64,000 bases of DNA from Streptomyces rubradiris (GTDB lineage: Bacteria > Actinomycetota > Actinomycetes > Streptomycetales > Streptomycetaceae), in NCBI RefSeq assembly GCF_016860525.1, contig NZ_BNEA01000015.1:1736001-1800000 (forward strand), written 5' to 3'. The stretch's first letter is position 1; every line of letters starts with the position of its first letter. The position numbers were made by a program, and so were the translations under genes. The notes beneath the pieces are model-generated. The model made no database searches. It worked only from the letters and a program-made list of their open reading frames with translations, and was not told the DNA's origin. This document shows positions 9,931 to 19,204 of this stretch, piece by piece.

Positions 9931-10044
9931 AAAGGGCGTGCCGCTCGCCCGGGCACACGGGGTCGGTCCTGCGACCTCCCCGTGCACACCCTCCACCGAC
10001 ACCCGCGCGACCCCCCACCGGTGCAACCCCCACTGAGGAGACTC

Positions 10045-10836
10045 ATGTTCGGGCACAGACGTGTGAGAAAGACCGCCGCGACCCTGGTGGCCACCGCCGC
10101 CGCCGCGGCGACCGCGTTGCTCGCCTCCCCCACGGCGAGCGCCGCACCCCAGCCCATCGTCGGCGGTACGACCACCACGACGACCGCGTACCCGTTCATC
10201 ATGCAGGTCACGGACGCGTCCCAGAACCAGTTCTGCGGCGGCACCCTGGTGTCCCCCACCAAGGTCGTCACCGCCGCGCACTGCATGGTCGGCGAGACCA
10301 CGAGCAGCGTCCGCGTGGTCGGGGGCCGCACCTACCTCAACGGCACCAACGGCACGGTGAGCCGGGTCAGCAAGATCTGGATCAACCCGGGTTACACGGA
10401 CGCCACCAACGGCGACGACGTGGCCGTGCTGACCCTGTCGACGTCGATGCCGTACACCACGGCCAAGTACGTCTCCTCCTCGCAGACGAGCGTCTACGCG
10501 GCCGGCACCTCGGCCCGCATCCTCGGCTGGGGGACCACCTCGGAGAACGGCAGCTCCTCCAACCAGCTGCGGACCGCGACCGTGCCGGTCGTGTCCGACT
10601 CCAGCTGCCGTTCCTCCTACGGGTCGGACTTCGTCCAGTCCGACATGGTGTGCGCCGGATACTCCTCCGGCGGCGTGGACACCTGCCAGGGCGACAGCGG
10701 CGGTCCCCTGCTCATCGGGGGCGTCCTGGCAGGGATCACTTCCTGGGGCGAGGGGTGCGCGGAGGCCGGTTACCCGGGTGTCTACACCCGGCTGACCACC
10801 TTCTCGGACCTGGTGACCGCGCAGGTCAACTCGTAA
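10045..10836 (+). CDS. Secreted trypsin-like serine protease (S1 family)
   Basis: A 263-residue exported protease of the chymotrypsin fold, similar in layout to Streptomyces griseus trypsin. A signal peptide (ATLVATAAAAATALLASP, cleavage after ASA) leads to a short propeptide and the mature-type N-terminus IVGG. The catalytic triad is visible: TAAHC (His), DDVAVL (Asp) and GDSGGP (Ser). Asp six residues before the serine (GVDTCQGDSGG) predicts cleavage after Arg/Lys. Six cysteines fit three disulfides. ATG at 10045 follows GAGGAG. It ends at a strong hairpin. Control by the adjacent LuxR-type regulator is inferred from shared motifs. Confidence 0.93.
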   Translation: MFGHRRVRKTAATLVATAAAAATALLASPTASAAPQPIVGGTTTTTTAYPFIMQVTDASQNQFCGGTLVSPTKVVTAAHCMVGETTSSVRVVGGRTYLNGTNGTVSRVSKIWINPGYTDATNGDDVAVLTLSTSMPYTTAKYVSSSQTSVYAAGTSARILGWGTTSENGSSSNQLRTATVPVVSDSSCRSSYGSDFVQSDMVCAGYSSGGVDTCQGDSGGPLLIGGVLAGITSWGEGCAEAGYPGVYTRLTTFSDLVTAQVNS

Positions 10837-10874: not shown

Positions 10875-10915
10875 GGGGGCGTTGCGGGCCACCACGAGCG
10901 GCCCGCAACGCCCCC
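10875..10915. terminator. Bidirectional terminator between trypsin gene and solute-binding protein gene
   Basis: A perfect 16-bp stem (10875-10890 with 10900-10915) around a 9-nt loop, followed on the plus strand by TTTCC. It lies between the stop codons of two convergent genes and should end both transcripts, including the five-gene pknG operon. Confidence 0.85.
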
Positions 10916-10946: not shown

Positions 10947-12260
10947 CTACGTCCGGTCGCACACCGACGGCAGCCAGGTCAGACCCCGGGTGCCGCTGAG
11001 GGTGTCCAGGGAGCCGAGCAGGCGGTCCAGGCGGTCGGGGTGGGCGAGGAATTCGATGGCCGCCTCGGCGAACGCGTCGCGCACCGCGGGCGGCATGGCG
11101 TCGGAGGCGTCGAAGCAGTGCGCCGCCTTCTCGTCGCGCAGGGCGGCGGCGAGCGAGCGGTGCCAGGCGGAGCCGGAGCCGCCGACGGCGGGCGGCAGAC
11201 CGGCGTGCACGGAGAAGCCGGACTCCCCCTCGCTCCAGGCCCGTTGGGCGCCGGCCGAGGCCAGGTGGCGGATCAGCTTCCGCGCCTGCGGGGTGTCGTG
11301 CAGCAGGGCGACGAGGTCCCCGGAGACCTCCCAGGCGCGCGGGGCGGCCCCGAAGAGCAGCTCGGCGGAGGAGACGTAACGACCGTCGGTCTGCCGCCAG
11401 GCGGGCCGGCCGCGGATGAACGACGCCTGGTGTTCCAGCACGCAGCCGCGCGGGCGGGCGCTGACCGGGTCCGACGCCGACTGGTACGGGGTCTTCAGGG
11501 CCCGCCGGACGAGGTCCGGGTCGCCGCCGGCGCCAACGAGGTCGCCCCAGGCCGTCCAGGCCGACCTCACCTGCGGGGAACGCCAGGGCAGATCGCCGCG
11601 CGCCCAGCGTTCGTAGGCGGCGGGGCCGTGGCGCTGGAGCAGGATGTCCTCGATCCAGTCGGTGCCGGGCCAGCCGCTCGTGGCGCCGGAGCCCATGCCG
11701 ACGCACCACGCGGCCGGCCGGCGCACGGCGTCCCGCAACTCCCGTTCGCCGAGGCCGGCCGGGTACCAGACGATGCTCTTCAGGTCGGCCTTCAGCGGGA
11801 ACCAGTACACGTGCCCGTCCGTCAGCGGGGTGGCCCAGGACGGTCCGAAGTCCGCGTGGCGCACCAGGTCTTCCAGTGGCACGAGGTGCTTCTGCCGTGC
11901 GTACTCGGCGAGTTCGCCGGGCCCGGTGAGCACCACCACGTCGGGCGGGGTGCCGGCCTCGACGTCGGCGCCGAGCACCTGGCTCTCGGCGTTGCTGCCC
12001 TGGTAGTCGACGCGGATGCGGTACTTCCGTTCGAAGGGCTCGATGACCGCCTCGCGGAAGTGGCGCTCGTCGCCGCCGGTCCAGTTGGCCAGCAGGGTGA
12101 CGGACGGCTCGTGCCCGAGGGCGCGTACGCCCGCCACGGCGACCGCGGCCAGGACGGCCAGGCAGCTCGCCACCACGGTGACGACGCGGGCCGGACGGCG
12201 GGAGCGGCGGGGCCGGGGGCCGGGGGCGGCCGTCACCGGGCCGCCGGGGCGCGCGCTCAC
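10947..12260 (-). CDS. Extracytoplasmic solute-binding protein of the pknG operon
   Basis: A 437-residue exported protein, last gene of the operon. A hydrophobic N-terminal segment (VVTVVASCLAVLAAVAVAGV, about residues 20-40) follows basic residues. It lacks a lipobox cysteine after the hydrophobic stretch, so it is either cleaved or stays anchored. The body begins VTLLANWTGGDERHFREAV and looks like a family-1 extracellular binding fold. No permease or ATPase gene is nearby, so it more likely senses a ligand for the adjacent membrane protein than serves import. Its GTG overlaps the upstream stop as GTGA. In mycobacteria the equivalent position is filled by GlnH, an unrelated subfamily of binding protein. 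Confidence 0.75.
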   Translation of the reverse strand: MSARPGGPVTAAPGPRPRRSRRPARVVTVVASCLAVLAAVAVAGVRALGHEPSVTLLANWTGGDERHFREAVIEPFERKYRIRVDYQGSNAESQVLGADVEAGTPPDVVVLTGPGELAEYARQKHLVPLEDLVRHADFGPSWATPLTDGHVYWFPLKADLKSIVWYPAGLGERELRDAVRRPAAWCVGMGSGATSGWPGTDWIEDILLQRHGPAAYERWARGDLPWRSPQVRSAWTAWGDLVGAGGDPDLVRRALKTPYQSASDPVSARPRGCVLEHQASFIRGRPAWRQTDGRYVSSAELLFGAAPRAWEVSGDLVALLHDTPQARKLIRHLASAGAQRAWSEGESGFSVHAGLPPAVGGSGSAWHRSLAAALRDEKAAHCFDASDAMPPAVRDAFAEAAIEFLAHPDRLDRLLGSLDTLSGTRGLTWLPSVCDRT

Positions 12261-13441
12261 CGGGGCCTGAACCGGTAGTCGTTGATGTGCCGCCTGAGGC
12301 CCGTCTCGGCCAGTGCCATCAGCAAGGCGCCTCCTATCAGGATCCACACCGCCGCCGCCGCGCGGAAGCCGGTGCCGGACAGGTACGAGGCGGTGTGCCG
12401 CCCCGCGTCGGGGATGAGCCGCCCGGGCAGCGGGCGGTCGAGCAGGGTACGGGTGTCGGTCATCCCCGCTTGCGTCCACACGGTGAACAGCACGGTGACG
12501 GTGACACCGGCGAGCAACAGCAGCCCTGCGGCGATGAGTTGCCGGTTGTAGCGGCGCCGGAAGCGGTGGCGCAGGAAGCGCTGGGTCTCCAGCAGCGCGG
12601 CGGTCAGGGCGAGGGCGAGCAGCAGGGTGACGCTCCAGGCCAGCCACAGCAGCGGGCCGAAGGAGGTCTGCCGGTGCACGGCGGCGCGCTCCTGCCGTTG
12701 CAGGGCCCTCAGCCGGTCCTGTATGCCGGCGCCCTTCTCGGTCAGGACGCTGGTGGCGTAGCTGAGGTACGCCTCGCGCAGGACGCTGCCGTCGGGCTGG
12801 AGTTGGGACTGCTGGACCTTGACGGCGTAGACGGTGATGAGACCGGCCACCGTCTGGAGGGCCTGCCGGCCGCCGGGTCCGCCGAGGTCGTCGTCGGCCG
12901 CGGCGGCGGCGAGGCTCTGCACGGCGACCGAGATCTGCTTCTGGAAGTCGCTCGTCGGAGCCGGCTGGGCGGCGGCCCGCTGGGCCTGGCCGAGCGCGTA
13001 CAGCGCGGTGTCCAGGGACAGCACGGCCGGGGCGGTGGAGGAGCGCAGCGGGTCCGCGCCGTCGTGCACGCCCTGGTACGACACGAACAGCGACAGGGTG
13101 AGCAGGGCCGACAGGGCCAGCAGCAGGCGGTGCCGGAGGGCCAGGTCGCGCGCGGTGGTGCTGCCGCCGTCGGCGGGCCGGGTTCCGGCCCCGGTGGCCC
13201 AGGAGACCGGCCGGGAGACGAGCCGGGCGAGGCGGCCCGCCCATCGGCCGGGCGTACGGCGGCCGGACCGGGGCTGCCGGGAGGACGGGGACTGCGGGGA
13301 GGACGAGGACTGCGGGGAGGACGGGGACTGCGGGGAGGCGGGGGGCGGCTGGGACGGTGGGTGGACGGGTGAGCCGGTGGGTGCGCCCGGAGCCGTGCCG
13401 CGCCCGCCCGCGCCGGGTGTTCCCGCGTTGCCCGGGTTCAT
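12257..13441 (-). CDS. Four-helix membrane sensor protein, GlnX-like
   Basis: A 394-residue protein with a Pro/Ser/Gln-rich cytoplasmic N-terminus, TM1 near residues 98-118, a long helical extracellular domain (about 120-260), a TM2-TM3 hairpin near 263-320, a second outside loop and TM4 near 360-382. This matches the topology of mycobacterial GlnX, which links the binding protein GlnH to PknG. Its ATG overlaps the vWA gene stop as ATGA, and its stop overlaps the binding-protein start, so all three should be translated in fixed ratio. Homology to GlnX is inferred from topology and gene order, not from a search. Confidence 0.65.
   Translation of the reverse strand: MNPGNAGTPGAGGRGTAPGAPTGSPVHPPSQPPPASPQSPSSPQSSSSPQSPSSRQPRSGRRTPGRWAGRLARLVSRPVSWATGAGTRPADGGSTTARDLALRHRLLLALSALLTLSLFVSYQGVHDGADPLRSSTAPAVLSLDTALYALGQAQRAAAQPAPTSDFQKQISVAVQSLAAAAADDDLGGPGGRQALQTVAGLITVYAVKVQQSQLQPDGSVLREAYLSYATSVLTEKGAGIQDRLRALQRQERAAVHRQTSFGPLLWLAWSVTLLLALALTAALLETQRFLRHRFRRRYNRQLIAAGLLLLAGVTVTVLFTVWTQAGMTDTRTLLDRPLPGRLIPDAGRHTASYLSGTGFRAAAAVWILIGGALLMALAETGLRRHINDYRFRPR
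13281..13334. repeat. Three 18-bp in-frame tandem repeats
   Basis: Three copies of an 18-bp unit (13281-13298, 13299-13316, 13317-13334), differing by one base in the middle copy. They encode a repeated SSPQSP-type linker in the N-terminal tail of the membrane sensor. Copy number is likely to vary between strains. Confidence 0.85.
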
Positions 13442-15162
13442 GCCGGTGCCCCTCTCAGCAGGCGCCCGCAGTCGCCTCCGCAGTACAGGGAGTCGGCCGG
13501 TCCCAGCCAGCGGCAGTCGGGGCACTCGATCAGTCCGTCCGGGCGGACGGGCGGCGCGCCTCCTGGACTTCCGCTGCCCGGCGCCGCGTGACCCGGAGCC
13601 GCGTGCCCCGGCGCCGCATGGCCCGGCACGAGGTCGCCCGCCGCAGGGTCGCCCGGGTCCGCGTCGGCCGGAACCGCGCCGCCGTCGTCACGGCTCCCGG
13701 GAACCGCGGCCCCCACCGGTTCCGGCACCCCTGCCGCACTCCCCGCCCCTCCGACACCCCCACGCCCCGCACCCGAAGACGCCCTGCCGCCGCCCTCCCC
13801 CGAGTACCGCTCCGGCGGAGTCGTCAGGGCGCTGGAGAGGATGAGGTGCTGCCAGTCGACGTCCTTCAGGCCGGGTCGGATGCGGCCGGTGCCCGGTGCG
13901 GACTCGATGAGGCGGAGCGCGCCGAGCAGTTGGGCGTCGCCCAGCTCGGCGGCCAGGGCGAGGGCGCGGGCGAGTTCGCGGTCCGCCGTCTCCCGGCCGT
14001 CCGCGCCGCGCAGCCAGGCCCGGTACGCCTGGGCGACGGCGGCGCTCGCCCGCTGGTACAGCTCGTGCCGCCGGACCCCGGGGTGCTGCCGGGAGGCGTC
14101 GAGCGGATCGTCGGTCCAGCGCACCAGGATGGGCCGGGGCGGCGGCAGCCGCAGCGGGCGCCGGACGCCGGGTACGTCGATCTCCACGGCGGCCAGCTGG
14201 AGTTCCTCGCCGCTCTCCCGGCCGGTGGGGTCGGCGGTCAGGACGACCTGGAAGTGCCGTACCTCGTCGCCCCAGGCCCGGGTGACGTACTCCGCGGCCC
14301 GTCCACCGGGGCTGGCCGGGACGGGTCGCAGCTCCTGTTCGTTCGGCACCACCTGCTTGACCTGGCGGATCACCGTGCCGGGGGTGGTCGGGGTGAGCCG
14401 GATGCGCAGTTCGGGCACCGCCGTGCCGAGCAGCCCGGCGATCAATTCCTCGTAGGCGGCGGTGAGTTCGGACTCCCGGCGGACGGCCCGGGCGCGGCCG
14501 TGCAGCCGCCGGGTGATGGCCAGCAGCAGTTCGGCGTCCCAGTCGTCGCCGATGCCCCAGGCATCACAGACGAACTGGCCCGCGCAGGCGTCGAGCACGG
14601 ACTGAAGCGGCCGGTGGGAGCGGTGGTCGTGCTCGTTGCGGCCGTCGGTGAGCAGCAGGACGTGTTTGACGGGCGCGGGCTGGTCCTTGAGCAGCCGCCG
14701 GGCGAGGTCGAGCCAGGCGCCGATGGCGGTGCCGCCGTCCGCGTCCAGGAGGCGGACCGCGCGTTCGGCGGCCTCGCGTTCGCCGGGCCGGGCGACGGCG
14801 AGCACCTGGCTGCCGGGGCCGGGGTGCACCACGGTGGCGTCGAACCGTCCGGCGAGGACGGCGAAGGCGGTGCCGAAGGGCAGCATCCGGACGGCGGCCG
14901 CGGTGGCGTCCTTGGCCGCGTGGAGTTTCGCCGGCGGGTGGAGCATCGAGCGGGAGGTGTCGACGATCAGCACCTCGGCGAGGGCGGGTCCGGTGCCGGG
15001 CGCGGGGGTGGCGTGCGGCGCGCCCGCCGGGCCGCGGACCCCGATCTCCAGGATGGCGTGCATCTCGCGTTCGCGGTGGTGCCCGGCCGGGTCGGGCAGG
15101 GCGGGCAGTTCCGTCCGCTGGCCGACCTCCAGCGTCACCTCGGTCTCCTCGGCCACGGTCAT
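13438..15162 (-). CDS. von Willebrand factor A domain protein with C-terminal zinc ribbon
   Basis: A 574-residue cytoplasmic protein. The vWA domain spans about residues 50-240, with the metal-ion-dependent adhesion site DTSRS near 68, the threonine segment GGTAIGAWLDLA, and LLLTDGRNE near 172. A beta-rich middle and a helical part follow, then a low-complexity Pro/Gly/Ala linker that includes three 15-bp in-frame repeats (13580-13624), and finally CPDCRWLGPADSLYCGG, a zinc ribbon. vWA domains with intact MIDAS bind protein partners. It sits between PknG and the membrane sensor and is a good candidate scaffold between them. ATG chosen by the GGGAGAG site. Confidence 0.85.
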   Translation of the reverse strand: MTVAEETEVTLEVGQRTELPALPDPAGHHREREMHAILEIGVRGPAGAPHATPAPGTGPALAEVLIVDTSRSMLHPPAKLHAAKDATAAAVRMLPFGTAFAVLAGRFDATVVHPGPGSQVLAVARPGEREAAERAVRLLDADGGTAIGAWLDLARRLLKDQPAPVKHVLLLTDGRNEHDHRSHRPLQSVLDACAGQFVCDAWGIGDDWDAELLLAITRRLHGRARAVRRESELTAAYEELIAGLLGTAVPELRIRLTPTTPGTVIRQVKQVVPNEQELRPVPASPGGRAAEYVTRAWGDEVRHFQVVLTADPTGRESGEELQLAAVEIDVPGVRRPLRLPPPRPILVRWTDDPLDASRQHPGVRRHELYQRASAAVAQAYRAWLRGADGRETADRELARALALAAELGDAQLLGALRLIESAPGTGRIRPGLKDVDWQHLILSSALTTPPERYSGEGGGRASSGAGRGGVGGAGSAAGVPEPVGAAVPGSRDDGGAVPADADPGDPAAGDLVPGHAAPGHAAPGHAAPGSGSPGGAPPVRPDGLIECPDCRWLGPADSLYCGGDCGRLLRGAPA

Positions 15163-15191
15163 CGCTGTCTCTCCCGGAGCTGGTGGGTGGG

Positions 15192-17516
15192 TCAGAAGGT
15201 GGTCATCGGCCGGACGGCGTGGGCGAGGTCGAGCAGCCGGCCGTGTTCCCCGGCGGTGCGGGCCTGCGCGGCGAGCTGCCGGAAGGACTGCTCCAGCCGG
15301 GCGCGCAGCCCGTCCTCGTCCCCGTCGCCCAGCAGGTCCCCGGCCGGGAAGTCCCGTCCCCAGCCCTGGGCGGGTCGGCTGTGCAGGGCGTTCTCGCGGA
15401 CCTCGGCGATCAGCCGGGCCCGGGACTCGCCGTCGGCGGCGCCGCCGTCCAGGCGCAGTTCCGGCAGTCGCCGGGCGGCGTCGCGCAGGCCGGCCGCGGT
15501 GGGCGGGGTGCCGTGCAGGATGCCGGCGCGGACGCGGACGGCGGCGATGCGGGCGGCGTCGTGGTGCCGGGAGGTGGCGGGGACCTCGTCGAGGACGTGC
15601 ACGGCGGCGTCCCGGTCGCCGGCCGCGAGGTGGCCGCGGGCCAGGCCGAACGCGGCGGCGGTGTGCGCGAAGTCCCGTCTCCAGACGGCCTCGTAGTACC
15701 GCATGGCGCGGGCCGGGCGGGTGCCCGCGGTGTGCTCGGCGCAGTGGCCGAGGGCGAGCTTGGGCACGTACTCGCCGGGCAGCGCCTGGTGGACGGCGTC
15801 GAAGCGGACGCCGGCCAGGTCTACCTCGCCCTTGCTGAGGTGCAGTACGCCGTGGTGCCAGGCGATGCGCCAGTCGTGGGCGGCGGCGCGTTCGCCGAGC
15901 AGGGTCTCGGCCTCGGCGAGCCAGCTCTCCGCCGCTCGCTGCTCGCCCTTGCGCAGATAGGCGCGGCACAGCCACAGGGCGGTCTCGGGGGTGCCGAGGC
16001 GGGATTCGCGGGGCCACTGCCGGGCGACCCGGTCGGGGGCGTCGGGCGGGAAGGAGTCGAGCAGCAGCGCGGCGCCGTCCTCGGGGTCGGGTAGGGGCTC
16101 GGGCAGGGCGCCGGCCACCTCGACGGGGTGGGGCGGGGAGACGTCGAGGGCGGCGGGCCGGCCGTCGGCGCGGCGGGTCCAGTGGCCGAGGGCGGGGATG
16201 GCGCCGAGCCCGGCGTCGAGGCCTGCGCCCGAGGGGCGGAACAGGGTGGAGCTCTCGGGAAGCTGTTCGCCGAACCGGAGCGCGCGGAACTCGCGCAGCA
16301 CCTCCCAGAGCTGGCGGGACATCTCGGCGGCGGAGCGGAACCGGGCGCGGGGTTCGGCGTGGGTGGCGCGGGCGATGACGCGGCGGAAGGAGTCGGAGGC
16401 GAGGCCGCGGGCGGGTTCGGTGCCGCGGGCCAGGGCCTGGAGGGTCATGCCGACGGTGTAGAGGTCGCTGTCGACGTGCCAGCCACGGCGGTCGACCTCC
16501 TCCTTGGGCGGGGCGAAGCCGGGCGTGTAGACGTAGGCGGAGGCGCGGTCGCCGATGGCGCGGACGGCACCGAGGTCGACGACCTTGACGGCCCGGCCGA
16601 AGTGGATGACGTTGGCGGGCTTCATGTCGCAGTAGAGCAGGCCGCGTTCGTGCATGTACTGGAGGGCGCCGAGGATCTTGCAGCCGTAGGTGAGGACGTG
16701 GTCGAGGCGGGGACGGCCGTGGAAGATCCGTTCGATGTCGTCGGCGTCCATGAGCTGTTGCAGGGAGCGTCCGCCGATGTAGTCCATGACGAGGTAGCCG
16801 GTGGCGGGGTGGCCGGCGCTTCGGTGTTCGGCGTAGGTGACGATGCGGACGATGTCGGGGTGGTGCAGGGCGGTGAGGGAGCGGCGTTCCTCGACGGCGG
16901 TGTGGCGGGCGAGGACGTCGTGGACGTTGATCTGGCCCTTGAGGACGACGCGGTGGCCGTCGGCGCGGGTGTCCTCGGCGAGGTAGATCCAGCCGAGGCC
17001 GCCGTGGGCGAGGCAGCCGAGCACCTTGTAGTGGTCGGCGACGACGTCGCCGGGGGCGAGCTGGGGCAGCAACGAGTAGGGGGTGCCGCAGCGGGGGCAG
17101 CGGCCGGTGGCGCGGGCGGGCTGGCCGCCGTAGCCGACGCCGATGGTCATGGTGCAGCCGCCGGCGCCGCAGCGGCGGCCCCCGGTGGGCGGCCGGGGGT
17201 CGGTGAGGAGGACGTCGTCGGGGGCGGGGACCTCGGGCAGGACGACCAGTCCGTGCTGGTCGAGTTCGCCGAGTCCGGCGACGGCGTGCACGGCCGCCGG
17301 TCCGGGCGGCTCCTCGGCGGCGGTCGCGCCCGTGGGCCGCGCGGGCGGTCCGGTTTGGGGGCCGGGGTGCGGTCCGGTGCGGGGGCCGGGGTGCGGTCCG
17401 GTGCTGAGGCCGGGGTGCGGTCCGGTGCGGGGTTCGGCGTGCCGGTGGCCACAGGTGTCGCAGTAGCCGGTGGCCATGATGCGGCCCGCGCAGCCGGGCC
17501 GGACGCACGAGGTCAC
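15192..17516 (-). CDS. pknG: Serine/threonine protein kinase PknG
   Basis: A 774-residue cytoplasmic kinase with the full PknG layout. An extra N-terminal zinc ribbon (CVRPGC then CDTCG) and Pro-rich repeats precede the rubredoxin-like pair (CGAGGC near residue 117, CPRCG near 137). The kinase domain follows: CLAHGGLGWIYLAEDT, the ATP-binding lysine in RVVLKG, CDMKPANVI (a non-RD catalytic loop with cysteine in place of His/Asn) and VVDLGAV. The TPR half ends LDLAHAVRPMTTF, very like mycobacterial PknG. In other actinobacteria PknG phosphorylates the FHA protein GarA/OdhI and so controls glutamate and TCA flux. The GTG overlaps the upstream stop as GTGA. Confidence 0.93.
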   Translation of the reverse strand: MTSCVRPGCAGRIMATGYCDTCGHRHAEPRTGPHPGLSTGPHPGPRTGPHPGPQTGPPARPTGATAAEEPPGPAAVHAVAGLGELDQHGLVVLPEVPAPDDVLLTDPRPPTGGRRCGAGGCTMTIGVGYGGQPARATGRCPRCGTPYSLLPQLAPGDVVADHYKVLGCLAHGGLGWIYLAEDTRADGHRVVLKGQINVHDVLARHTAVEERRSLTALHHPDIVRIVTYAEHRSAGHPATGYLVMDYIGGRSLQQLMDADDIERIFHGRPRLDHVLTYGCKILGALQYMHERGLLYCDMKPANVIHFGRAVKVVDLGAVRAIGDRASAYVYTPGFAPPKEEVDRRGWHVDSDLYTVGMTLQALARGTEPARGLASDSFRRVIARATHAEPRARFRSAAEMSRQLWEVLREFRALRFGEQLPESSTLFRPSGAGLDAGLGAIPALGHWTRRADGRPAALDVSPPHPVEVAGALPEPLPDPEDGAALLLDSFPPDAPDRVARQWPRESRLGTPETALWLCRAYLRKGEQRAAESWLAEAETLLGERAAAHDWRIAWHHGVLHLSKGEVDLAGVRFDAVHQALPGEYVPKLALGHCAEHTAGTRPARAMRYYEAVWRRDFAHTAAAFGLARGHLAAGDRDAAVHVLDEVPATSRHHDAARIAAVRVRAGILHGTPPTAAGLRDAARRLPELRLDGGAADGESRARLIAEVRENALHSRPAQGWGRDFPAGDLLGDGDEDGLRARLEQSFRQLAAQARTAGEHGRLLDLAHAVRPMTTF
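17347..17442. repeat. Four 24-bp in-frame tandem repeats in pknG
   Basis: Four successive 24-bp units (17347, 17371, 17395, 17419), each starting GGTCCGG, encode TGPHPGPR-type octapeptides between the N-terminal zinc ribbon and the rubredoxin motif of PknG. The last unit is the most diverged. Confidence 0.85.
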
Positions 17517-19204
17517 GAGGCGCCCTCCTCCTCCGGTGCGGTGGTGGAGCAGAAGCCGACGAACCGTTCGACGGCGGTCTCGGCCCGCTCGATGTCGCAG
17601 GGGGTGTGCCGCAGCAGTGACAGCGCCTCCTCGTAGAGCCGGTACGCCGTCATGACCCGGTCGCCGTGCGCGGCGGCCCGCTGCCGGCACAGCGGCCATT
17701 CGGCGCCGACGCGGCCGAGGAGTTCGGCGCGGCGGCGCAGCCGGGCGTCGAGCAGGCCGATGGCGTTCTCCAGGCGCCGCCGGCGGCGGGCGACGGCGTC
17801 CTCGAAGGTGAACAGCAGGCCGGCCGCGGCGGGGTCGCGCTCCGGGTCGGGGGTGTGGGCGACCCAGGCGCGCAGCATCCGGGTGCGCCGTACGCCGGCC
17901 TCGGCCCGGTCCAGCAGCGGGCGGGTGCCGGGTCCGGGCAGGACGCGGTCCCGGCGGGTGTCCAGGGCCGGGCCCAAGTCGTCGGTGATGCGGTCGAGTT
18001 CGGTGTGCAGCCGGGCCCAGCGGTCGCGCAGCGGGCGGTGGACGAGCAGGTCGGAAGCGCGGGCGGCGCGCTCACCGGGACTGCGGAAGGCCAGCAGCAG
18101 CCGGGCGCCCTGCCGGGCGAGCCGGTCCAGCAGGGCGAGCAGAGCGTCGGGGTCGGCCGCCTCGTCGACGCCGGCCAGCACGGCGGCGAGCGGCAGGCGC
18201 AGGGTGCCGAGCCGTTCCGGGCGGGGGTCGTCGCGGATGCCGAGGCGCTCGGCGATCCGGTCCATGACCTGGGCGGTGGTCAGGTCCTCGACGTCGAGCG
18301 CGAGGTCGTGGGCGCCGGCGGGCGGCACGGTCTCGGGCGGGTCGTGGCTGACGGCGCTGGTGTTGCGGTGGGTGCGCAGTTCGCGGTCGGCGAGGGTGAC
18401 GGCGCGCTGGAGGGTGAAGGCGCGGTCGCCGCCGGCGGGGACGACGGTGACGAGCACCGGCCAGCCCTCGCCGCGGAACCAGGTGGCGAGTTCGGTGGCG
18501 AAGGGCACGTCGAGCCGGCCGGCGGCGGGGCCGGTGCCGGTGCGCAACCGGGGGTCGACGGCCTCGGGGCCGTCGGACCAGGCATCGACCTGGGGCAGGT
18601 GGCTGAGGATGGTCTCGGTGGGGCTCATGTAGCTGAACGCGGAGCCCGGCCCCTCGTCGACGCTGAGGACGATGCCGATGACCCGGTCGGTGGCGTGGTC
18701 CACGACTCCGCCGCCGCTGAAGCCGGGTGCTGCCAGTTCGCCGGGGGTGAGGGGGCGCAGTTGCACCTGGCTGTCCCGGCCGCGGGCGGCGACCAGGGTG
18801 GCGCCGTGCCAGCGCCCGCCGTCGTCGCCGTCCGGGAAGCCGTACATGCTGACGGGTCCGTGCGGGGCGGCGAGGCGGTGGAGCCGGGTGGTGTGTCCGG
18901 CGGGCAGGGGCGGTGCCAGGCGCAGCAGGGCGAGGTCGCCGCTGCGGTCCCCGAAGGTGTCCTGGCGCTGGGGCACGTACTCGTCGGGGCGGACGGTGGC
19001 GGTGACGGGGCCGAGGCCGGGCACGCCGACCAGGCGGACGGTGTAGTGGTGGCCGGGCCGGACGACGTGGGCGGCGGTGAGGACCCGTTCGGGGGCGAGC
19101 AGCACCCCCGCGCCGAGGACCCGCCCGTCCGGCGTCTCGATGCGCGCGATCCAGGCGGGTGTCCGTAACCGTGCCGTGCCGACTCGCTCCCCCGTGCGCG
19201 TCAT
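17513..19204 (-). CDS. Trypsin-like peptidase-domain protein, first gene of the pknG operon
   Basis: A 563-residue protein without a signal peptide. The first about 200 residues are a trypsin-like fold with the triad in order: LTAAHVV (His near 44), SGDLALLRL (Asp near 93) and PGFSGGGVV (Ser near 161). The remainder is helical and unassigned, with LLALLDRLARQGARLLLAF near residue 365 and an Arg-rich end. Cytoplasmic trypsin modules of this kind occur in actinobacterial signalling and conflict gene sets with vWA proteins. The ATG at 19204 follows CAGGGA. The gene ends in a GTGA overlap with pknG, so it is part of the same translational unit. Confidence 0.8.
   Translation of the reverse strand: MTRTGERVGTARLRTPAWIARIETPDGRVLGAGVLLAPERVLTAAHVVRPGHHYTVRLVGVPGLGPVTATVRPDEYVPQRQDTFGDRSGDLALLRLAPPLPAGHTTRLHRLAAPHGPVSMYGFPDGDDGGRWHGATLVAARGRDSQVQLRPLTPGELAAPGFSGGGVVDHATDRVIGIVLSVDEGPGSAFSYMSPTETILSHLPQVDAWSDGPEAVDPRLRTGTGPAAGRLDVPFATELATWFRGEGWPVLVTVVPAGGDRAFTLQRAVTLADRELRTHRNTSAVSHDPPETVPPAGAHDLALDVEDLTTAQVMDRIAERLGIRDDPRPERLGTLRLPLAAVLAGVDEAADPDALLALLDRLARQGARLLLAFRSPGERAARASDLLVHRPLRDRWARLHTELDRITDDLGPALDTRRDRVLPGPGTRPLLDRAEAGVRRTRMLRAWVAHTPDPERDPAAAGLLFTFEDAVARRRRRLENAIGLLDARLRRRAELLGRVGAEWPLCRQRAAAHGDRVMTAYRLYEEALSLLRHTPCDIERAETAVERFVGFCSTTAPEEEGAS

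Follow-up and report, generated by a model that had tools for sequence, protein, structure and literature searches.

The stretch of DNA analyzed here (the window; 64,000 nucleotides of Streptomyces rubradiris contig NZ_BNEA01000015.1, positions 1,736,001 to 1,800,000) lies in a genome of 9.05 Mb, G000, and the nearest relatives of its proteins come from Streptomyces. Between positions 19204 and 10947, its minus strand carries five adjacent genes coding for a trypsin/HtrA-like protease, a kinase of the PknG family (PknG2), a vWA protein, a GlnX-type membrane protein (GlnX2), and a membrane-anchored solute-binding protein (SBP) of a sugar-type family (Table 1). A first-pass annotation, made from the sequence alone, had described five minus-strand genes linked by short overlaps and one gap, and this layout was confirmed by reading the DNA: 4-bp overlaps join protease and pknG (GTGA, 17516-17513), vWA and GlnX-like gene (ATGA, 13441-13438), and GlnX-like gene and SBP (GTGA, 12260-12257), and 29 bp (15191-15163) separate pknG from vWA. 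Since both genes flanking the set are on the opposite strand and an inverted repeat lies 3' of the SBP stop codon, the five genes are likely to form a single transcription unit. A trypsin-family gene (positions 9982-10836; PF00089, 186.8 bits) runs convergently toward the operon end. No sigma-70 type promoters were detected, such patterns being uninformative for Streptomyces.

Table 1. Features of the five-gene operon and its 3' boundary (window positions)
Feature	Start or extent	Stop	Strand	Length	Description
Protease	ATG 19204	TGA 17513	minus	563 aa	Trypsin/HtrA-like, middle alpha/beta domain, C-terminal helical (CC) domain
PknG2	GTG 17516	TGA 15192	minus	774 aa	N-terminal Cys motif, rubredoxin-type, kinase, and TPR domains
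vWA protein	ATG 15162	TGA 13438	minus	574 aa	MIDAS, C-terminal Cys cluster
GlnX-type membrane protein (GlnX2)	ATG 13441	TGA 12257	minus	394 aa	Four transmembrane helices
Solute-binding protein (SBP)	GTG 12260	TAG 10947	minus	437 aa	Membrane-anchored, sugar-type
Perfect inverted repeat	10875..10915		none	16-nt arms, 9-nt loop	Lies between SBP and the convergent trypsin gene as a possible 3' boundary

The stop-start overlaps are kept across related loci beyond chance. Counting a stop as overlap-capable if A, G, or T preceded TGA, we found such stops in 42/42 protease genes, in all 44 vWA genes found, and in 41/41 unfused GlnX2 genes (the fused genes of L033 and L038 were dropped), versus only 4 of 45 pknG and 12 of 43 SBP genes (loci L006 to L051, with L031 left out).

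In a search of the G000 genome, the models for the PknG rubredoxin domain and for GlnX each matched two places, a strong one near 5.30 Mb of contig C15 (109.8 and 469.4 bits) and a weak one in the window (38.8 and 48.5 bits). The strong place is a canonical PknG cluster (L005:2988-13979), located 3.5 Mb from the window on one contig, with the order glnX-glnH-CC-pknG-PP2C-vWA-FHA. Its proteins matched SBP_bac_3 (GlnH), the PknG_TPR, rubredoxin, and kinase domains (PknG), PP2C_2, VWA_3, and FHA in Pfam, while its GlnX and CC proteins had no Pfam match. The PP2C and FHA genes are absent from the window operon. By these homologies, the window operon is not an enlarged version of the PknG operon, as had been proposed in the first-pass annotation, but a second, paralogous PknG cluster beside the canonical one. 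We refer to clusters of the kind found in the window as type 2.

For comparison, we surveyed canonical clusters elsewhere. Among other Streptomyces (20 regions taken, one of which was a 100-base stub, leaving 19; L054-L073), 16/19 loci had all seven canonical genes in the order of L005. The exceptions were L065, with a vWA fragment, L067, which has no vWA gene, and L069, which has no glnX, glnH, or CC gene; an intact vWA gene was thus present in 17/19. The genome containing L069 and L070 (G068) has two canonical-type PknG copies, of which the L069 copy is accompanied by PP2C, vWA, and FHA. A class-wide search with PknG_TPR (E<=1e-20) found matches in 54/197 genomes, from which 20 loci were picked (L081-L100; L100 is from Streptomyces). 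In family f4, whose gene layout led us to label it mycobacteria-type, L081 to L083 read glnX-glnH-pknG (the L081 contig ends just behind pknG) and L084 has pknG alone. In families f11, f17, f18, and f26 (L085-L099), 9 of 15 loci had a vWA match above 350 bits and 12 of 15 a PP2C match, and FHA and CC matches were frequent, often weak; L093 and L095 had neither a vWA nor a PP2C match. Hence, mycobacteria-type and some other PknG loci lack vWA. In L091, L093, and L095, second PknG copies of family f18 adjoin a glnH-glnX pair of opposite orientation, a further rearrangement.

The identification of the kinase as PknG in the first-pass annotation held, since both PknG-specific domains scored above their Pfam cut-offs (PknG_TPR, 197.9 bits against 27; PknG_rubred, 32.9 bits against 28.5), next to a Pkinase match. 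In NCBIfam, 18 families were matched by PknG2, none close to its cut-off. The rubredoxin-type Cys residues are kept in 42 to 44 of 47 alignment rows, and the catalytic residues K193, D297, K299, N302, and D314 in 46/47, the exception being the truncated L032. Other positions vary: the residue picked as helix-C Glu (E209) is kept in 32/47 rows, that picked as APE Glu (E339) in 21/47, and a glycine of the Gly-loop is replaced by Ala in 10. As judged by its TPR and rubredoxin-type domains and its catalytic residues, PknG2 is a PknG-family kinase; it shares 40% identity over 724 amino acids (aa) with the canonical PknG of G000. In a tree of 77 rows, obtained after 16 near-duplicates had been dropped from 92 and the window row added, a single branch (SH-aLRT 99) separated 36 type-2 PknG rows from 40 canonical rows and 1 unassigned row. 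The tree was built by a quick method with midpoint rooting, and the program flagged long branches in L074, L075, L076, and an 11-row divergent group, the latter on a branch of 2.26. With this reservation, the tree indicated that the PknG2 lineage is separate from the canonical PknG sampled. We also considered, and rejected, the idea that the canonical streptomycete operon had been duplicated recently, because streptomycete canonical PknG groups with other actinobacterial PknG and is split from type 2 by this very branch.

GlnX2 matched the NCBIfam GlnX model NF058618 at about 48 bits (E 9.6e-13), short of the 250-bit cut-off, whereas the canonical GlnX of G000 reached 469 bits. When profiles cleaned of fused rows were compared, however, GlnX2 and GlnX proved related (probability 97.3, E 2.4e-11), and the 11 GlnX proteins of the divergent loci L040-L050 together gave a probability of 99.1 versus GlnX2 but only 30.7 versus canonical GlnX. 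By these profile matches, GlnX2 is a GlnX homologue outside the subfamily covered by NF058618. The GlnX topology attributed to it earlier stood in part: hydropathy showed four peaks (residues 107-125, 264-282, 303-321, and 359-377), and the divergent loci were likewise consistent with four transmembrane helices (three were called in L043 and L050). Of the predicted periplasmic segments, in contrast, only the first is large (~140 aa) and the second is short (~40 aa), unlike in Corynebacterium glutamicum GlnX, for which passages of PMC9769921 describe two domains that each measure about 155 aa.

The window GlnX2 ends in INDYRFRPR (window 12257-12290). A tail of the form [LIVMT]x[ED]Y[RG] was present in 34/39 canonical and 39/47 type-2 GlnX proteins, versus 74/5708 open reading frames (ORFs); this pattern was picked after the tails had been viewed, the control comprised ORFs over 150 aa from the same loci with GlnX included, and ORFs flagged as holding an SBP had been removed before the type-2 count. 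Often reading RRLSEYR or PRLxEYR, the tail is common to GlnX from mycobacteria-type through Streptomyces clusters (L081-L099, L005, and L052-L073). The conservation of this short, predicted cytoplasmic tail makes it a candidate docking site.

The binding protein had been assigned to a family different from GlnH, of sugar type, and our comparisons bore this out. It matched SBP_bac_1 (43.1 bits, cut-off 26), whereas the canonical GlnH of G000 is an SBP_bac_3 protein (96.8 bits), and no relation to GlnH profiles was found (probability 0.2). Its sequence relatives in the PDB were NagB2 and YesO; fold matches, obtained from a fused relative, were of the AcbH and MalE type, and most of the fold neighbours listed were sugar binders. 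Judging from segments read by eye, most divergent loci have a lipoprotein-like SBP, and in the clade of the window it is anchored by a transmembrane segment. Inside this segment, window-clade proteins have a V[AV]SC-like string and may therefore be lipid modified.

The protease, as stated in the first-pass annotation, has an intact triad (H46/D90/S163, kept in 44/44 alignment rows) and no transmembrane segment by hydropathy. It matched Trypsin_2 (42.8 bits) and Trypsin in Pfam, and in a structural model (pLDDT 87.1) residues ~8-210 resembled HtrA, DegS, and trypsin folds. No PDZ match was found in Pfam behind the protease domain, where the model shows an alpha/beta middle region (residues ~225-376); in fold searches with the whole protein, the matches were taken up by the protease domain. 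The remaining C-terminal part (residues 385-563) matched the stand-alone CC family of canonical clusters in a local profile-profile comparison (probability 96.6, E 4.7e-10), while four negative comparisons each gave a probability of 0.1. Moreover, blastp aligned the tail with a CC protein (32% identity over 88 aa, E 0.002), and the CC profile matched the protease-frame tails of L037, L038, and L043 at 30-40 bits. In L097, the ORF ahead of pknG was matched separately by the CC profile (32 bits) and by the tail part of the protease profile (44 bits). The slot directly upstream of pknG is occupied by the protease in type-2 loci and by the CC protein in canonical loci. These comparisons identify the C-terminal domain of the protease as a homologue of the CC protein. 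Two single proteins related to the protease differed in other respects. P0223 (684 aa, from a Mycobacteriales metagenome assembly) carries PF13676 (TIR_2) ahead of trypsin, middle, and CC-like regions. The protease stretch of L077 (G402:C1:7915221-7916912) contains one in-frame TGA, indicating a possible pseudogene or a boundary effect.

The vWA protein matched VWA_3 (61.4 bits) and shares 37% identity over 399 aa with the vWA protein of the canonical cluster of G000. Its MIDAS had been called intact, and indeed S70, S72, and D173 are kept in 48/48 rows and D68 and T145 in 47/48, the exception being the fragment of L031; the C-terminal Cys residues are kept in 36 to 39 of 48. No AAA+ match, as expected for a MoxR-type partner, was found in Pfam among the five operon proteins. 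In the first-pass annotation, vWA protein and protease had both been considered extra parts of the operon. For vWA we rejected this view, because the gene is present in the canonical cluster of G000 and in most canonical Streptomyces loci; by homology it is an old partner of PknG clusters. The protease does represent an addition, but since its tail is the counterpart of CC, the added portion is confined to the protease front end and the middle domain. A vWA protein, SACTE_2094, is tabled among induced intracellular proteins of a Streptomyces studied on xylan (a table of PMC12772271).

We then determined whether the five genes travel together, using cleaned profiles, to which some of the counted loci had themselves contributed rows, and locus sets that, except for the last, had been selected for carrying either vWA or protease. 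All five genes were present in order in 23/28 vWA-picked loci; four exceptions (L016, L017, L021, and L032) were contig ends, and L031 had a vWA fragment and no pknG within 9 kb. The same order was found in 19/20 protease-picked loci, where the exception, L053, was a trypsin-only match. Among eight loci chosen otherwise, four were complete (L074, L075, L077, and L078), L076 had no vWA, L100 had neither protease nor vWA, and L079 and L080 had trypsin matches only. Thus, far from being rarely adjacent, the genes form a recurrent set. In L052 and L078 this set follows directly after the FHA gene of a canonical cluster.

Natural fusions connect several of the genes. GlnX2 and SBP are fused in L033 and L038, and this combination (PF28326 + PF01547) also occurred in 8 of the 120 SBP clusters listed from a total of 720; most GlnX2 relatives are listed with PF28326. 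A fused GlnX2-SBP protein was modelled with a pLDDT of 87.2 and a pTM of 0.80. In L076 (8272-12579), protease and PknG2 share a single frame of 1436 aa without a stop; no CxxC pair is visible in it ahead of the kinase domain. In our view, no other evidence speaks as strongly as these fusions for the SBP acting on GlnX and for protease and kinase working together.

Among 150 Streptomyces genomes, 141 had a PknG_TPR match (E<=0.001) but only 37 matched the window protease (E<=1e-15). In 34 of these the match, by the ranges listed, reached past the trypsin domain, and in three (G009, G070, and G104) it was confined to it; DNA was read for 21 of the 34, namely the window, the 19 loci L034-L052, and L078. 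Class-wide, protease matches (E<=1e-25) were found in 39/345 genomes, 20 in the genus and 19 outside. Long matches were limited to 9 of the former and, among the latter, to G390 (family f46), where the five-gene set is present and the CC-tail match is weak (27 bits); in the other genomes outside the genus, no match extends beyond model position 267. As this search scored only four candidates per genome, it tests absence weakly.

On balance, it seems rather probable that PknG2, vWA protein, and protease form a cytoplasmic assembly under the control of a membrane receptor whose SBP is of the sugar family. The membrane-tethered SBP would bind an extracellular ligand, probably (oligo)saccharide-like, and dock on GlnX2 at its periplasmic helix bundle, and the transmembrane helices of GlnX2 would relay the state to a short cytoplasmic loop and the conserved C-terminal [LI]x[ED]YR tail. 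At the cytoplasmic side of GlnX2, PknG2 would use its TPR domain, and the protease its CC tail, to form one assembly with the vWA protein, so that the ligand state would switch the activity of PknG2 and that of the protease, the latter directly or by phosphorylation, and the switched protease would cleave a cytoplasmic target. The basis of this model, namely homologies, gene order, overlaps, conserved catalytic residues, colinearity, fusions, and a kinase lineage of its own, was read from sequences. From it we infer the class of ligand, the contacts within the assembly, the kinase substrate, the protease target, and the direction of control.

Several observations weigh against this model. The fold of the SBP leaves the ligand unfixed, neither a phosphorylation site nor a protease target was identified, and the proposed contacts are derived only from fusions and homology. 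In L052 and L078 the protease frames reach only 467 and 475 aa and, as in L075, lack part or all of the CC tail; no vWA match was found in L076, and L100 has neither a protease nor a vWA match beside pknG. Not every part can therefore be indispensable. We put forward only tentatively the more specific version in which a sugar, via the SBP-GlnX receptor, would act on a PknG-family kinase and vWA scaffold and from there on the HtrA-like protease, together forming a phospho-proteolytic complex. In that version the protease would have taken over the CC adaptor of canonical PknG systems, and PknG systems, instead of making up one amino-acid pathway, would therefore be receptor-kinase platforms that are interchangeable.

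Alternatively, the operon might be a plain paralogue of the canonical pathway, in which PknG2 answers to another ligand, phosphorylates the same GarA/OdhI-type FHA substrate at the 2-oxoglutarate node, and is accompanied by the protease as a regulatory accessory, not as an output. PknG2 retains TPR, rubredoxin-type, and kinase domains, the PP2C and FHA proteins could be shared with the canonical cluster of G000, being missing from the window operon yet present there, and in the tandem clusters of L052 and L078 the type-2 set even adjoins the canonical FHA gene. We nevertheless consider this unlikely, since PknG2 and the canonical PknG sampled fall into separate lineages and the protease triad is kept in 44/44 rows, which argues that catalysis matters. 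Still less probable is a conflict or cell-death module, with kinase, vWA protein, and trypsin acting in intracellular defence, like the NTP-dependent systems of Kaur et al. 2020, and the SBP sensing an outside threat or a kin signal. Such a role would fit the patchy distribution, the PF13676 region of the distant relative P0223, and the actinobacterial neighbourhoods of kinase, PP2C, and vWA with trypsin/vWA partners outlined by Kaur et al. (passages of PMC7159879). PADLOC kinase models also matched PknG2, with PD-T4-6 scoring best (91.4 bits, E 1.8e-26) and mad6 and PglW among the others, but the matches shown cover the kinase domain and are spread over unrelated systems, as would be expected of any Hanks-type kinase. 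Those of the other four proteins were weak (best E 6e-5, trypsin domain), and a defence system was dropped as a candidate; in addition, the five proteins have no MoxR or nuclease-type match, and the partner architecture is that of PknG nutrient-sensing clusters. SBP_bac_1 proteins usually serve ABC importers, but the idea of a sugar-uptake SBP and a housekeeping protease sharing an operon by chance is very improbable in light of the conserved overlaps, fusions, and colinearity over very divergent loci and of the absence of ABC transporter parts among the five genes scanned in the window's flanks.

The first-pass interpretation, in which a PknG sensor operon had gained protease and vWA protein, is thus partly supported: we propose a parallel PknG branch in which the family of the outside sensor was swapped and a protease added, a combination present in a number of related bacteria. 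The PknG operon itself appears in a different light, since many actinobacterial loci include the CC, PP2C, vWA, and FHA genes missing from mycobacterial and corynebacterial models. In C. glutamicum, GlnH-GlnX and GlnX-PknG contacts are, as worded in passages of PMC9769921, assumed and not demonstrated; the GlnX-SBP fusions, the protease-PknG fusion, and the shared GlnX tail make such contacts directly testable. We found no published description of the five-gene set in the open-licence PMC literature, as judged by titles, abstract openings, and passages. Other SBP-linked kinases, SCO1468 of S. coelicolor and SGR_4432 of S. griseus, are mentioned in PMC6069109, the one paper that our search turned up for SCO1468.

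Among known systems, the vWA-MoxR ternary conflict systems differ from the window operon in that the latter has no AAA+ match. With HtrA/DegS, the window protease shares the fold of the protease domain, but it has middle alpha/beta and CC domains instead of a PDZ match or a transmembrane segment. The GAP1-N2 kinase-PP2C-vWA neighbourhoods, as far as described in passages of Kaur et al. 2020 (PMC7159879), are similar in combining an actinobacterial kinase, in some cases with a zinc ribbon, with a stand-alone vWA protein, whereas the window operon has no PP2C or GTPase match and pairs a PknG-type kinase with an external receptor. The GlnH-GlnX-PknG model published for mycobacteria and Corynebacterium (outlined in PMC6069109 and PMC9769921) agrees with the window operon in its TPR-containing PknG kinase, a four-helix GlnX with a similar tail, a membrane-held SBP, and clustered genes. 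In contrast, the window SBP is of another family, GlnX2 has one reduced periplasmic segment, the operon includes vWA and protease genes, and the kinase lineage is apart. According to passages of PMC6069109, the operon of mycobacteria and Corynebacterium comprises three genes. The canonical streptomycete cluster read here is larger, with seven. Compared with the latter, the window operon has no PP2C or FHA gene, its CC domain is fused behind a trypsin domain, and its receptor genes are located downstream, with SBP_bac_1 replacing SBP_bac_3; both kinds of cluster, however, combine pknG, vWA, and GlnX and carry a CC domain immediately upstream of pknG.

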